Source of the DNA: Desulfobacterales bacterium | Lineage (GTDB): Bacteria > Desulfobacterota > Desulfovibrionia > Desulfovibrionales > Desulfothermaceae | NCBI GenBank assembly: GCA_027064715.1 | Contig: JAMOPG010000203.1 | Span: 1 to 33,549 of the forward strand | Length of the DNA: 33,549 nt | Reading direction: 5' to 3' | Shown here: positions 21,801-28,597 of the stretch, in pieces | Layout: the number at the start of each line of letters is the position of its first letter | Numbering within the stretch: the stretch's first letter is position 1 | Position numbers and translations under genes: made by a program | The notes under the pieces: model-generated | Seen by the model: the letters and a program-made list of their open reading frames with translations, nothing else | Told to the model about the DNA's origin: nothing | Databases searched by the model: none

Positions 21801-23060
21801 TTACTTTTGTTTATTCATTATATTTTTTCTCATCTGTTCTGCCAGATGTTTCATTTCAACAAGGGTTTCTTTCATCTTTGCATAGCCATACCAGGTTGTA
21901 TAATCAGGATTCATATGAAATGCTGCCTGGAAGGTCTTCATACGATAGTCCATGAACATTTCATAGAGTTTTTCTTCAATAGGTGTATTAACTTCATAAA
22001 ATGTTAAAAGATCTGGATAAGGCCAAGTTGCCATATTGGTTTTCTTTGGAATAATACCGTCTTTATAAAGCCCTTCTACCAGCTCAATTGCTTCAGCAAA
22101 GATCTTATCAGCAGCCTTAATCATTTGGTCTGCATTTTTTAGATTATTCTCTGCAAAATTGGCAGAATGGCATTTTTCACACCTCTTTAACATCTTAGTT
22201 CTTTCAGCCTTAAAACTAGCTTCATCTAGCCTTGCCATATTTGCCTTTTTTACGAGATCAAGTCTCGGTGTAGGTTTTCCATCTTTGTCTAATACTCCAA
22301 GCGCCTTTAAAATTGTAATCCTATAATCTAGCCACTCTTTATCTTTTTCAGGTAACCTTAGGGCCAAAAATCCCCATCCAGTCATTACCCTGTGATTACC
22401 ATCTGGCATATGACAATCCTGACATGTAGGGCCCCTATGGGATTTTCTATCAGTAAGATAAGCTATTCCGTGTCTGGAATGTGACCAGAATTCCCACTGG
22501 GCATGATCAAATCCAGTATGACAACTTGCGCATGTTTCAGGTTCTTTTGCCTCTTTTACAGAAAAGGCATGTCTTGTGTGGCAGTTTTGACAATCCATGC
22601 CATATTTATAATATTTTCTGAATTCATTGTTTCTTACCTGGTTGTCTGTGATTCCAAGATTGTGACAACCATTACATCCTTTTTGGCCAGCAATAAATGC
22701 TTTTGGTTGCTTGTGGGCAAAATCTGGAAAAGCTGTAATAGGCAAAAGACCTAAGGCATGCTTTCCACTCATATACTGTTTTACTTGTGTTCTGTGGCAT
22801 CTCTTACAAGTTGAAATAGTAGGTAACAGGGCTTTATCAGCATCTGCAGCACATTTATGAGCACTGCCATGGCATGTAGCACAATTTAATCCAGCTTTAG
22901 ACATCTTGCTTTTGTGAAAATCTTTGACGATTCCTGGTGAAATTTTTGCATGGCACGATTCACAATCTTTAACATTTTTTGCAAAACCTTGGGCAGAACA
23001 TAAAAATAAAATTGCAAAACAAATTGCTTCTGAAAGGATTAAAAAGTTTTTGTTTTTCAT
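21801..23060 (-). CDS. Octahaem c-type cytochrome of the hydroxylamine oxidoreductase (HAO) family
   Basis: A 419-residue periplasmic protein with a signal peptide ending near residue 27 (QGFA). Eight CxxCH haem sites are at residues 33, 60, 85, 129, 157, 177, 213 and 294. The block CQNCHTRHAFSVKEA, then CASCHTGFDHAQWEFWSHSRHG, is characteristic of the HAO-like octahaem family. The C-terminal third is helical and haem-free. HAO oxidises hydroxylamine using a tyrosine cross-linked haem. Relatives without the cross-link reduce nitrite or hydroxylamine. I cannot align the tyrosine by eye. In an anaerobe a reductive or detoxifying role is the better guess. At 419 residues it is shorter than classical HAO. 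It is transcribed alone, with a good promoter and terminator. Confidence 0.85.
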   Translation of the reverse strand: MKNKNFLILSEAICFAILFLCSAQGFAKNVKDCESCHAKISPGIVKDFHKSKMSKAGLNCATCHGSAHKCAADADKALLPTISTCKRCHRTQVKQYMSGKHALGLLPITAFPDFAHKQPKAFIAGQKGCNGCHNLGITDNQVRNNEFRKYYKYGMDCQNCHTRHAFSVKEAKEPETCASCHTGFDHAQWEFWSHSRHGIAYLTDRKSHRGPTCQDCHMPDGNHRVMTGWGFLALRLPEKDKEWLDYRITILKALGVLDKDGKPTPRLDLVKKANMARLDEASFKAERTKMLKRCEKCHSANFAENNLKNADQMIKAADKIFAEAIELVEGLYKDGIIPKKTNMATWPYPDLLTFYEVNTPIEEKLYEMFMDYRMKTFQAAFHMNPDYTTWYGYAKMKETLVEMKHLAEQMRKNIMNKQK

Positions 23061-23321: not shown

Positions 23322-23448
23322 TCTATCCATATCCAATTATAAAACAGGGCCAACAAGAGAGTGTCGCAGGAAAGTCAACTTGTAAAAGATATAAAATTTA
23401 TACACAAAATAATTGACACAATCCATCATTTTTATAAAAAATCAGCAC

Positions 23449-23655
23449 ATGAAGTTAGAAATAACACCTATACAATTACTTTTGGTTGGTATAGGTATGG
23501 CGTTTTTGATAGAGGGGATGATATATTTTTTATTTCCCTCTAGTATAAAAAATATGTTAGAACATATAAAAGAGATGTCTCCGTTAGTTTTGAGAAATTT
23601 GGGTTTTTTAGCGATGATTACAGGACTTATTATAGTGTATATGGTGATTAAGTAA
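23449..23655 (+). CDS. Small DUF2065-family membrane protein
   Basis: A protein of 68 residues starting MKLEITPIQLLLVG. Two hydrophobic helices, about residues 8-26 and 48-66, flank a short loop with the conserved core FPSSIKNMLEHIKEMSPLVLRNLG, matching the DUF2065 (YjeT-like) pattern of a Pro after the first helix and LRxxG before the second. Function unknown. The track starts at a TTG at 23413. I prefer the ATG at 23449 because it gives the family length, although no clear ribosome binding site precedes it. A TTGACA at 23413-23418 with a poor -10 could yield a nearly leaderless message. It ends three bases from the convergent PilZ gene. Confidence 0.7.
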   Translation: MKLEITPIQLLLVGIGMAFLIEGMIYFLFPSSIKNMLEHIKEMSPLVLRNLGFLAMITGLIIVYMVIK

Positions 23656-24305: not shown

Positions 24306-25022
24306 CTATTTCCTCGCTTTATGCAAATAAACTATCCCATAAGTCAAAGGATAATAATTTACATCAGAAAAACCCGAATGTAAAAGTTCTTGTTTTAATT
24401 GAAAAGAGCTGGGAAATTTTAATATAGAGTCTCTTAAATAGGTATAAGCTTTTTTGTTTCTAGAGACCTTATTTCCAATAAAGGGAAGTATAGAAGAGAG
24501 ATAAAGATTATAAAGGCCAAACATGATCTTTTTTTTGGGAGGAGAAAATTCCAATATCAAAAAAGTTCCACCTGGTTTTAACACCCTTAGCACTTCTCTA
24601 TATAACTCTTTTCTAGGACTGACATTCCTTATACCAAATGCAATGGTGACCACATCTATGGAAGATGTTTTTATTGGTATTTTTTTTCCATTTGCACAAA
24701 TAGCTAATTTGGAATCTATTTTTTTGGTTTTTTTAAGTCCTGCTCTGAGCATTTCATAAGAGAGATCTAAACCAATAAGTATAGGCTTTGACTGATAAAA
24801 CCGCTTTGCCAGATAGATTATTACATCCATGGTCCCTGTGGCCAGATCTAAAAAAACAGGTCTTTTTATGCCCTGAATGTTCTCTATACTTTCAATTAAT
24901 TTTTTTCTCCAATATATATCAATTCCAAAACTAAGAAAGTGATTTAAGAAATCATACCATGGCGAGATCTTTGAAAACATTGATGCAATTTGTTTGTCTT
25001 GAAACTTACTCATTCTTTTCAT
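24306..25022 (-). CDS. menG: Demethylmenaquinone methyltransferase (UbiE/MenG family)
   Basis: A 238-residue class I SAM methyltransferase that performs the last step of menaquinone synthesis, methylating demethylmenaquinone. Motif I reads FLDLATGTMDV, with GLDLSYEML as motif II. The UbiE-specific AFGIRNVSPRKELYREVLRVLKPGG and the C-terminal YTYLRDSILKFPS stretch are present. Anaerobes of this type use menaquinone only, hence menG. Two in-frame ATGs (25022 and 25013) compete and neither has a strong ribosome binding site. Both overlap the end of the 62-residue gene upstream, so translation is probably coupled. Confidence 0.9.
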   Translation of the reverse strand: MKRMSKFQDKQIASMFSKISPWYDFLNHFLSFGIDIYWRKKLIESIENIQGIKRPVFLDLATGTMDVIIYLAKRFYQSKPILIGLDLSYEMLRAGLKKTKKIDSKLAICANGKKIPIKTSSIDVVTIAFGIRNVSPRKELYREVLRVLKPGGTFLILEFSPPKKKIMFGLYNLYLSSILPFIGNKVSRNKKAYTYLRDSILKFPSSFQLKQELLHSGFSDVNYYPLTYGIVYLHKARK

Positions 25023-25290: not shown

Positions 25291-25330
25291 AAAAAAGAGG
25301 AGAAACCCTCTAAGGCACCCCCTCTTTTTT
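25291..25330 (-). terminator. Terminator following the acidic coiled-coil gene
   Basis: On the minus strand AGAGG-GTTTCT-CCTCT is followed by TTTTT. The upstream AAAAAAGAGG, which includes the stop codon, can also pair with CCTCTTTTTT, giving an alternative longer fold. Confidence 0.6.
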
Positions 25331-26303
25331 ATTCTTCTTCCTCTTTTAGTTCTTCTTCCATTGCCTCTATTTCTTCCCTAATAATCTTTGCAGCTTCTTT
25401 GGGAATCAATACATTTATCTCTTGTCTTAGATCGTCTCTTAAGCCATCAACAACTTCTTTTAAATGTCCTTTTAGCACTTTTTCCCAATTATTAATCTTT
25501 TCACTAAGACCCATTAGCTCACTTTTTATTAAATCCTTAAATTTTTCAATCTCATGCTTTAGGTTATCTATATCTTTTTGAAAAGAAGGTTCATCCACAG
25601 ACGCATGCTTTTGATTTTGGACTTCTGCTAAAATCAACTCTAATTTATTGTTTAATTTTTCTTCAACTGATTTTATCTTTGGATCTATTATTTCTGTTAT
25701 ATGTTGTTTTAAGGTGCCTAATAATTGTTCATTATCAGCAAATGTCTCCTTCGCTGTGGCTTCATTTGCTTTAGCTTCAGTTTCTTCTATAGATTCTGTG
25801 TCTAGTTTTTCATCTGGGGCTTCTGGAATATCTTGATCAGCAATAGTCTTTTCTTCTTCTGTCTTTACTAACTCTTCATCACTGTCTTTATCCTCTTGAT
25901 TTTCCTCAAATAAAGAATCAATTTCATCCTGATTGATTTGTTGAGAATCTACCCCTGACTCTTCATCATCTATATTTAAGTCCTTATCAAGTTTATCAAA
26001 TATAGAGTCTATGTCCAAATCATCTTTTTTTTCTTGTTCAGACTGATACTCTGATGTTTCTGTTTCTTCTGGTTCTTCATCCAGTAAAGTATCTAGTTCA
26101 TCATCTAAAGAGGCCTCTTTATCAGAGCCCTCTTTTTTATCTGTTTTGTCGCTATTTGTCTGTTGTTCATCCCCTTCTAATAATGCATCTAATTCTTTTT
26201 CTAGATCATCAAACTCACTTTCCTCCCCTGATTCTGATTTCTTTTCCCCAGGCTCTTCTACCACTTCTGTTAATTCAATAACCTCTTCATCTTTTTTTGA
26301 CAT
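25329..26303 (-). CDS. Acidic low-complexity protein with C-terminal coiled coil, function unknown
   Basis: A protein of 324 residues from the ATG at 26303, which has GGAG about eight bases upstream. The track start 11 codons earlier lacks this. Residues 1-190 are strongly acidic and disordered-looking (Asp, Glu, Ser, Gln). Residues about 195-324 are helical with coiled-coil heptads (KSVEEKLNNKLELILAEV). Four short hydrophobic islands recur in the acidic part: KELDALLEGD (36), DELDTLLDEE (68), DIDSIFDKLD (97) and DEIDSLFEEN (126). These resemble the SQxEIDALL peptide at the FliM N-terminus. No signal peptide or membrane segment is seen. It is the last gene after ahbB, hemL and cytochrome c3, 36 bases from the cytochrome. 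I do not recognise the family. Confidence 0.7.
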   Translation of the reverse strand: MSKKDEEVIELTEVVEEPGEKKSESGEESEFDDLEKELDALLEGDEQQTNSDKTDKKEGSDKEASLDDELDTLLDEEPEETETSEYQSEQEKKDDLDIDSIFDKLDKDLNIDDEESGVDSQQINQDEIDSLFEENQEDKDSDEELVKTEEEKTIADQDIPEAPDEKLDTESIEETEAKANEATAKETFADNEQLLGTLKQHITEIIDPKIKSVEEKLNNKLELILAEVQNQKHASVDEPSFQKDIDNLKHEIEKFKDLIKSELMGLSEKINNWEKVLKGHLKEVVDGLRDDLRQEINVLIPKEAAKIIREEIEAMEEELKEEEE

Positions 26304-26339: not shown

Positions 26340-26753
26340 TTATTTTTTATGACACCCTTTGCAACTCAATGGACCAGTGGGTTTATTCTTTACTTTGTTT
26401 TTTGCATGACAGCTGAGGCAACTATGTACACTTTTTTTATCATGAAAGGCAAAATAGGCAGATTTTTTGTTCATCATTTGCGGTCCTTTAGCATTAATTA
26501 AATCATGGCATCCTGAGGACGTGCATTTTAAAGGTGCTTTGGTTTTATCAGTCCACTTATGATGACATGTCTCACAGGGTATTTTCTCATGTTTTTTGTG
26601 TGGCATTATAACAGGTGTGTAAAGGGGATTTTTGGTTTTGCCCAGCGAATCTTTCATTTCAATTTCTTCAGGGGGTTCAATTGCCATAGATCCCACAATT
26701 GCAATGCCAAATAGGAGACACCCTAAAAATACTAGAACTTTTGCTGCTTTCAT
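26340..26753 (-). CDS. Tetrahaem class III cytochrome c (cytochrome c3 family)
   Basis: A 137-residue periplasmic electron carrier with a signal peptide of about 24 residues. Haem sites are CETCH (60), CTSSGCH (77, the CX4CH form typical of cytochrome c3), CLSCH (112) and CKGCH (131). Axial-ligand histidines lie in PHKKHEK and FAFHDKKSVHSC. Cytochrome c3 shuttles electrons between periplasmic hydrogenases or formate dehydrogenases and membrane complexes in sulfate reducers. The fourth haem uses CX2CH rather than CX4CH, so it may be a variant c3. It follows hemL by 51 bases, behind AAGGAGG, in a group with haem-synthesis genes. Confidence 0.9.
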   Translation of the reverse strand: MKAAKVLVFLGCLLFGIAIVGSMAIEPPEEIEMKDSLGKTKNPLYTPVIMPHKKHEKIPCETCHHKWTDKTKAPLKCTSSGCHDLINAKGPQMMNKKSAYFAFHDKKSVHSCLSCHAKNKVKNKPTGPLSCKGCHKK

Positions 26754-26804: not shown

Positions 26805-28076
26805 TTATAAGTTGATCCTTTGTACACTATCAATAATCTTGTCCATGTCTTTTAAATCATGGGCAAAGGATGTAAACATGCATTCAAAATTAGAAGGAGG
26901 GATAAAGATTTTTGAGTTTCGCATATGAACAAAAAAATGTGAAAATCTGTTAGTATCAGTTGTTTTTGCATCCTCAAAGTTTTTGATTTTATCTTTTTCT
27001 GTAAAAAATATTGTAAAGGCTGAACCAAACTGATTAATTCTTACTGGGATACTTTTTTCCTTAAAAATGTTATTAAGTTCTTTTACCAAATTGTGAGTAT
27101 AATCTTCAAGATTTTTGTAGTCCTGGTTTTTTAAGATTTTTAATGTAGCAATCCCTGCTGCCATAGCCACAGGATTTCCAGAAAGGGTTCCTGCTTGATA
27201 TATATCTCCAGTAGGGGCTAGATGTTCCATTATCTCTCTTTTTCCACCAAATGCGCCTACTGGAAACCCACCTCCTATTATTTTTCCTAAACAGGTTATA
27301 TCAGGCTCTATTCCAAATATGTTTTGAACTCCACCATAACAGAATCTAAAACCAGTAATAACTTCATCAAAGATGAGAAGGGAGCCATACTTTGAAGTTA
27401 TCTCCCTTAATCCTTTTAAGAAATCCTTTTTTGGTAGAACTAACCCCATGTTTCCAGCAATGGGTTCAACAATTACCCCTGCAATATCCTCTCCATGTTT
27501 TTCAAAGATTTCTTTCACACCATCTATATTATTGAATTCTGCTAACAGAGTATGTTGAACAATTTGTTCAGGAACCCCTGGGGTTCCAGGAATGGAATAT
27601 GTAGCAACCCCTGATCCAGCCTGAGCGAGCAAATGATCCACATGGCCGTGGTAACATCCAATAAATTTAACAATTTTTTCTCTTTTTGTATAACCCCTTG
27701 CAAGCCTTATTGCGCTCATTGTAGCTTCTGTTCCAGAATTCACCATTCTTACCATTTCAATGCTTGGGATAGCATCTGTTATTAGCTCGGCCATTTCTAT
27801 TTCCCAAGGAGTTGGAGCACCAAAACTTGAGCCCAGTTCCAATGCCTGTTTTGCAGCCTTTACTACTTCAGGGTGTGCATGACCTAAAATCAACGGACCC
27901 CATGAGAGCACAAGGTCTATATATTCATCTCCATCAACTGAATAAATCTTGCTTCCTTTGCCTTTTTTAATAAAAAGTGGATCACATCCAACACTTTTGC
28001 ACGCCCTAACTGGGCTGTTAACACCCCCTGGTATTATTTTTTTTGCCTTGTTGTATAACTGGTTTGACCGCTCCAT
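26805..28076 (-). CDS. hemL: Glutamate-1-semialdehyde 2,1-aminomutase
   Basis: A 423-residue PLP enzyme that converts glutamate-1-semialdehyde to 5-aminolevulinate, the tetrapyrrole precursor in the C5 pathway. The PLP lysine is Lys265 in [17 protein letters not shown]. The motifs [34 protein letters not shown] and [10 protein letters not shown] are intact, and length is normal. The ribosome binding site is AAGGAGAT. It lies 38 bases after ahbB and before the cytochrome c3 gene, a sensible pairing of haem supply with a haem protein. Confidence 0.97.
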
Positions 28077-28114: not shown

Positions 28115-28597
28115 TTAAAAATATTTCATTGAAGTCTTTTTTAATTCTTCATCACTAAAAAGCATTTCATATTCAGTAAAATGTGTTAACTCTTTAATTT
28201 TATTTACAATAGACAAACAATCTTGTTTGCACCTTCCATGTATCATGGTGTATAAATTATAAGGCCAAGAGGGGTGAGTTTTTCTTACATAACAATGAGA
28301 TATCTCGGGTACTTGGGTAATAATGTCTGCAATATGATCAATTTTTTCCTCAGGCTCAACCTTCCAGGCAACCATCACATTACACTCGTATCCAGCAATT
28401 TGATGTTTTAGTGTAGCCCCAAACCTTCTGATTATTCCCTCTTTTTTGAGATTATTTAAAAAAGAAATTACCTTTTGCTCTGTAGTACCTACCTTTTTGG
28501 CTATTTCAAAAAATGGCATTGGACTATCTGGAATATTTTCTTGTACTATTTTTAGAATTTCAATTTCTACTTTGGTAAACTCAAGGTGATGGCTCAT
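28115..28597 (-). CDS. ahbB: Sirohaem decarboxylase subunit, AhbB-like (Lrp/AsnC-type fold)
   Basis: A 160-residue protein with an N-terminal winged helix (about 8-62) and a C-terminal Lrp-like alpha/beta domain (about 70-150). The stretch [24 protein letters not shown] and the signature [22 protein letters not shown] are typical of AhbB/NirG-type sirohaem decarboxylases rather than true DNA-binding Lrp regulators. AhbA and AhbB together remove two acetate carboxyls from sirohaem to give didecarboxysirohaem in the alternative haem route used by sulfate reducers. No ahbA, ahbC or ahbD gene is in the window. It leads the ahbB-hemL-cytochrome group. Confidence 0.88.

Follow-up and report, generated by a model that had tools for sequence, protein, structure and literature searches.

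A candidate polar hub of Desulfovibrionales with a PopZ/RomR-like C-terminal element and a clade-restricted array of EIDALL-like motifs

HubP and FimV, the polar hubs of Gammaproteobacteria, carry acidic repeats and are membrane-anchored, with LysM and TPR parts. PopZ, described in the literature as an alphaproteobacterial hub, combines a client-binding N-terminus, an acidic intrinsically disordered region (IDR) that tunes its material and a C-terminal oligomerization domain (PMC9512792), and the popZ genes of Magnetospirillum and Caulobacter lie in the neighbourhood of valS (PMC6414705). RomR consists of a receiver (REC), a linker and a Glu-rich C-terminus with an invariant Trp and Pro, and this last part, RomR-C, has been described as non-homologous to characterized domains (PMC3441718).

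Here we describe a 324-residue protein encoded in a 33,549-nucleotide stretch of DNA (the window; contig JAMOPG010000203.1 of assembly GCA_027064715.1) from a member of the Desulfovibrionales. On balance, the protein, called the hub below for brevity, probably belongs to a family of polar hubs of PopZ/RomR type as its Desulfovibrionales branch, in which an array of short motifs would dock clients. Its acidic repeats recall those of HubP and FimV, but a membrane anchor, LysM and TPR parts are absent, and its N-terminus, which reads EEVIELTEVVEE, is charged and of cytosolic type. The gene and its parts are as follows.

25329..26303, minus strand (ATG at 26303): hub protein gene, 324 aa, from translation, with homologues order-wide
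26253..26291, minus strand: N-terminal motif DEEVIELTEVVEE, residues 5-17; consensus [DE][DE]IIELT[DE][VI]VEEG in the order-wide alignment
26178..26195, minus strand: motif 1, ELDALL, residues 37-42; AlphaFold2 (AF2) helix 27-43, order-wide alignment
26082..26099, minus strand: motif 2, ELDTLL, residues 69-74; kept in genus orthologues, AF2 helix 66-74
25998..26015, minus strand: motif 3, DIDSIF, residues 97-102; kept in genus orthologues as DIDSIFEKLDEDL, AF2 helix 98-109
25908..25925, minus strand: motif 4, EIDSLF, residues 127-132, with INQD before it; genus orthologues, AF2 helix 125-136
25407..25799, minus strand: long helical, coiled-coil-like region, residues 169-299; AF2 helices 169-233 and 238-299
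25344..25442, minus strand: C-terminal PopZ/RomR-like element LRDDLRQEINVLIPKEAAKIIREEIEAMEEEL, residues 288-320; conserved order-wide, aligned by hhalign to PopZ and to valS-linked relatives

In the full-length AF2 model, built on a genus-plus alignment, each of the four motifs forms a short predicted helix, and the linkers between them have pLDDT values below 50. Long helices follow, interrupted at residues 299-301 (L-I-P) ahead of a final helix at residues 302-323; modelled in isolation, the C-terminal 80 residues form one continuous helix without a turn. Asp and Glu make up 40% of residues 1-195, and the motifs do lie in an acidic region ahead of a coiled coil, as the first-pass annotation of this DNA had proposed. 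Weak Pfam matches to FliG_C, EcsC, Baculo_PEP_C and similar models were rejected as sub-threshold hits typical of helical or acidic sequence.

Homologues of the hub were found in 120 of the 199 genomes of the order by alignment-profile search (E ≤ 0.001), and the named genomes among them include Desulfohalobiaceae, Desulfothermus okinawensis, Desulfonatronum, Pseudodesulfovibrio and Desulfovibrio. Across genera the plan is fixed: the N-terminal start [DE]IIELT[DE]VVEEG is followed after 20-40 residues by D.[FL]E.EL.[DE]LF, to which motif 1 of the hub corresponds, and then by the acidic region, the coiled coil and, at the C-terminus, LR.EL..E....P.AAA.IIREEIAAL. At phylum scale, the profile of the window family's C-terminus gave no convincing match beyond the order, and two matches outside it (genomes G378 and G403) proved spurious. 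The D. okinawensis copy (L006/L022, genome G001) is broken by frameshifts and stops; this assembly is estimated to be 43% complete, so sequencing error is the likely cause.

A profile of 41 family C-termini (A4) aligns without gaps to a set of four PopZ tails (A3), with an hhalign score of 25.0 and an E-value of 3.9e-5. The highest score among 200 column permutations was 13.4, the reversed profile reached 12.9, and coiled-coil controls were likewise far lower. Three of the four tails come from database records, and further PopZ was sought among plasmids (six records, four loci taken); for Caulobacter we used what we take to be the PopZ sequence, residues 1-134 of which agree with PDB 6xry, the C-terminal tail being presumed. 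When 1532 ORFs were searched with an HMM, three of the four PopZ tails came immediately behind the family members and a single, intentionally included false match. The coiled-coil part of the family gave no match to PopZ, and no PopZ relative was confirmed in IMG/VR. The hub resembles PopZ in its acidic disordered middle and in a helical, presumably self-associating C-terminal element of the form P....[RE].[IV].[RE]EEI. Moreover, the Caulobacter PopZ IDR contains DEVLELTDPI, an EVLELTD-type motif close to the N-terminal motif of the hub (1/2000 shuffles), for which the PopZ proteins of Sphingomonas and Shinella showed no significant match.

The differences from PopZ are equally clear. The client-binding helix EP[ST]M[ED]EILASIRRII of the PopZ N-terminus is absent from the hub, and the RP..L..W signature is absent from its C-terminal element. 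Unlike that of PopZ, the acidic disordered region is not proline-rich (2% Pro), and the hub differs further in its EIDALL-type array, in the long coiled coil ahead of its C-terminus and in its gene neighbourhood. It matches neither PF10691 (DUF2497) nor PopZ_fam (NF052660). Because it lies below the cut-off of these curated models and lacks the N-terminal helix, the proline richness and the linkage to valS, we do not claim it as a member of the curated PopZ family.

The link to valS reappears in relatives of the hub elsewhere in the Desulfobacterota, which share this neighbour with popZ. The N-terminal motif also occurs in valS-linked proteins of other orders, and a profile restricted to the N-terminus (A5) gave matches at E ≤ 0.05, with many weak ones among them, in 72 of the phylum's 297 genomes. 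Seventeen of the 18 best A5 proteins from other orders end in P.[IL][AV]..[IV][IL][RK].EI..[LI], a C-terminus that was absent from the query. One set of relatives, the L162 group, has the C-terminus RPVMGELVREL.......LPGIVEKVIREEIEKLKK, and its profile matches PopZ with an E-value of 5.2e-7 and a score of 34.1 (permuted, at most 17.5). Among five L162-group proteins, four have DUF2497 as their top Pfam match and the remaining one has it in second place, and two have PopZ_fam as their sole NCBIfam match; all these matches are below cut-off. A profile of mixed relatives (A7) in turn matches the window family (E 2.1e-6, score 31.6; permuted, at most 17.2). Loci of 52 relatives were examined, and in 40 of them the next gene downstream, in the same orientation, is valS; alphaproteobacterial popZ has a like neighbourhood (TolC-DUF2497-kinase-valS in Sphingomonas, TolC-popZ-valS in Sinorhizobium). 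Of the genomes of the window's order, 11 were sampled: A4 found the window type in them and A7 found no match, and no sampled genome had both types. There is no valS beside the hub gene in the window, and in the window's own genome valS has a different, unrelated neighbour.

Some relatives vary the C-terminal element. Three valS-linked proteins (L165:1459-2232, L170:706-1668 and L183:658-1620) carry three to four such elements in tandem (...REMIPRIA.E...KEIEKL...), a naturally occurring parallel to the PopZ oligomerization domain that was engineered to be multivalent (PMC9512792). Seven proteins of only 92-147 aa (L213-L218 and L220) have the element, in at least some of them right after a short LTDVVDD-like motif; no valS was found near them within the stretches examined.

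Other relatives point to RomR, which was compared here by its published description (PMC3441718) and not by RomR sequences. Seven of ten further valS-linked or A7-matching proteins have Response_reg above cut-off, and many end in WEVVP.LAE.LI..EI..L; as a lead, their REC, linker and WEVVP tail match the described RomR plan. Proteins L222, L224, L225, L226, L228, L230 and L234, which combine a receiver, an acidic linker and a PopZ/RomR-like C-terminus, are candidates for RomR; in several orders of the Desulfobacterota their genes immediately precede valS. The hub itself shares with RomR, as described, a linker and a conserved Glu-rich helical C-terminus with an invariant Pro. Unlike RomR, it has no receiver domain (no Response_reg match in Pfam), and the invariant Trp is absent from its C-terminal element, the WEVVP form being found in the relatives.

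Tentatively, these comparisons allow a wider reading, to which we give somewhat less than even weight: alphaproteobacterial PopZ, RomR-type response regulators and the Desulfovibrionales hub may all derive from one ancient valS-linked polar hub with a P..[AV][AE]..[IV]I[RK].EI oligomerization tail, and the Desulfovibrionales gene, without a receiver, may have moved beside cytochrome and haem genes and gained variable EIDALL-like docking helices for one conserved client. If the common C-terminal element and the valS synteny do reflect common descent, the polar hubs of Alphaproteobacteria and Desulfobacterota would be one family, and sulphate reducers would gain a candidate pole organizer. The evolution of client motifs would also become testable, with 0 to 13 copies on one scaffold. 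One may argue that short helical elements can converge, and that the hub is an unrelated coiled-coil scaffold whose likeness to PopZ is a convergence of short amphipathic helices. The shared element is indeed short (about 34 columns), the curated models stay below cut-off, and AF2 gave the isolated C-terminus as a single helix. Nevertheless, the scores of the permuted, reversed and coiled-coil controls are far lower, and neither the retrieval of relatives by the N-terminus alone nor the valS synteny depends on the C-terminal similarity; we regard convergence as unlikely.

The Desulfovibrionales branch is also marked by its motif array. The first-pass annotation had picked out four recurring EIDALL-type motifs, and these are real: [DE][LI]Dx[LI][LF] occurs four times against 0.02 expected from shuffles of residues 1-195, and none of 20000 shuffles reached four. 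All four are present in the same order in the genus orthologues, where motif 4, correctly read as following INQ in the window (INQDEIDSLF), becomes GQDEIDALF or SQDDIDSLF, and one copy is retained almost throughout the Desulfovibrionales. Across the family, copy number ranges from 0 to 13 and the spacing is not fixed. Summed over 48 family proteins, a loose form of the pattern gives about 136 matches, and shuffled sequences give about 10. The strict form has 69 matches within the family's 24.0k aa; the other ORFs of the family loci, some of which are non-genes, have 5 in 273k aa. The orthologues thus keep the motif pattern itself, conserved and enriched, and not acidity alone. The largest array lies in the acidic region of the hub of genome G142 (L066:3466-5649), with 13 loose and 11 strict motifs. 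In the valS-linked relatives, EIDALL-type motifs are rare (12 loose matches in 11.5k aa against about 5.6 expected by shuffling); hence the array is clade-restricted, an addition of the Desulfovibrionales branch that did not arrive with the fold.

By analogy with PopZ, the repeated motifs are most likely candidate docking sites for partner proteins, and we infer that the hub would oligomerize, localize to the pole and hold clients there. The coiled coil and the P.AAA.IIREEI helix would drive self-association, like the PopZ oligomerization domain, and the acidic disordered region would keep the assembly expanded and open. Clients would be docked multivalently by the N-terminal EIIELTEVVEEG motif together with the variable [DE][LIF][DE]x[LI][LF] amphipathic helices. 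On this proposal, the array would have been added in the Desulfovibrionales lineage, the ancestral gene elsewhere in the Desulfobacterota having stayed beside valS, often with a receiver domain instead. As to the clients, a response regulator would be a plausible one: CpdR, a response regulator, is bound by PopZ (PMC11519897), and relatives of the hub carry a receiver in cis. Receiver domains have 32 matches in the window's own genome.

The hub might also assemble as proposed but use its motifs as spaced stickers that tune self-association or the material of a condensate, and not to dock clients. Composition and charge pattern of the PopZ IDR do tune condensate material (PMC9512792), and a copy number of 0 to 13 without fixed spacing would suit such a role. 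On the other hand, stickers do not need a strict D/E and i, i+3, i+4 pattern, and one motif is conserved at a set position behind the N-terminal motif almost order-wide, which suggests a specific partner; we regard the sticker role as improbable, roughly on a par with convergence, and prefer client docking.

Less probable still is that the motifs mimic the FliM peptide and bind CheY or FlhG, which would make the hub a scaffold for chemotaxis or flagellar placement. CheY binds the EIDAL motif of FliM (PMC6946799), and FlhG is a partner of the FliM N-terminus in polar flagellates (PMC12826062); since this N-terminus binds both, CheY and FlhG are possible partners of the hub. Motif 4, INQDEIDSLF, resembles the N-terminus of FliM in the window's own genome, ILNQEEVDALL, within a protein that begins MSKILNQEEVDALLKGL, and hub motifs and FliM EIDAL share the [DE][IVL]D.L[LF] core and a predicted helix. 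However, the FliM N-terminus is near-invariant in the order (L.QDEVDALLRGL in 20 sequences and in that of the own genome), whereas the hub motifs are internal and repeated, lack the invariant QDEV..LLRG and take the order-wide form D.[FL]E.EL.[DE]LF. Nor does a FliM-specific profile single them out: the best hub motif scores 8.4 bits against 34.8 for FliM, 51 of 3000 shuffles match that score, and unrelated ORFs score higher. The FliM domain (Pfam PF02154) has no match in the hub protein. In addition, FliM was undetected in 16 of the 199 genomes of the order, some of them incomplete, and seven of the eight hubs from genomes without detectable FliM have at least one motif. These hubs do have somewhat fewer motifs on average (1.6 versus 3.0, p = 0.07, relatedness uncorrected). 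FliM mimicry was therefore rejected, because the FliM profile is unspecific and hubs of FliM-less genomes keep the motifs; "FliM-like core" is a better name for the motif than "FliM mimic". Of the earlier idea of a multivalent scaffold for a response-regulator-like partner, the multivalent scaffold survives, with conserved, clade-wide motifs and a hub architecture, and the specific connection to FliM and CheY finds no support in the FliM profile or the FliM-less hubs.

The hub gene was also correctly placed downstream of a cytochrome c3 gene, within a cluster whose other members are listed here.

24306..25022, minus strand: UbiE/MenG-type methyltransferase, downstream neighbour; domain match, conserved gene order
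26340..26753, minus strand: class III cytochrome c, upstream neighbour; Pfam Cytochrom_CIII, E 4.8e-19, conserved gene order
26805..28076, minus strand: HemL-type aminotransferase, upstream; assigned by sequence and gene context, conserved gene order
28115..28597, minus strand: siroheme decarboxylase subunit AhbB, upstream; domain match, conserved gene order

The order ahbB-hemL-cytochrome c3-hub-ubiE is kept in most Desulfovibrionales loci with enough sequence, in many genera. That the hub is an accessory protein of haem or cytochrome maturation or of electron transfer is very unlikely despite this constancy, as the protein has neither a haem motif nor a domain match (Pfam and NCBIfam profiles), and its nearest relatives in other orders adjoin valS, so that the genomic context is not tied to this kind of protein. 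The fixed arrangement around the cytochrome gene is no evidence for a redox role. Further along the window, 21801-23060 (minus strand) encodes a multihaem cytochrome similar to hydrazine dehydrogenase/HAO-type multihaem proteins, which matches NF052343 with an E-value of 8.9e-20, far below cut-off. Beyond ubiE, on the opposite strand (23413-23655, plus), lies the gene of a small membrane protein that accompanies the hub cluster at many of the order's loci.
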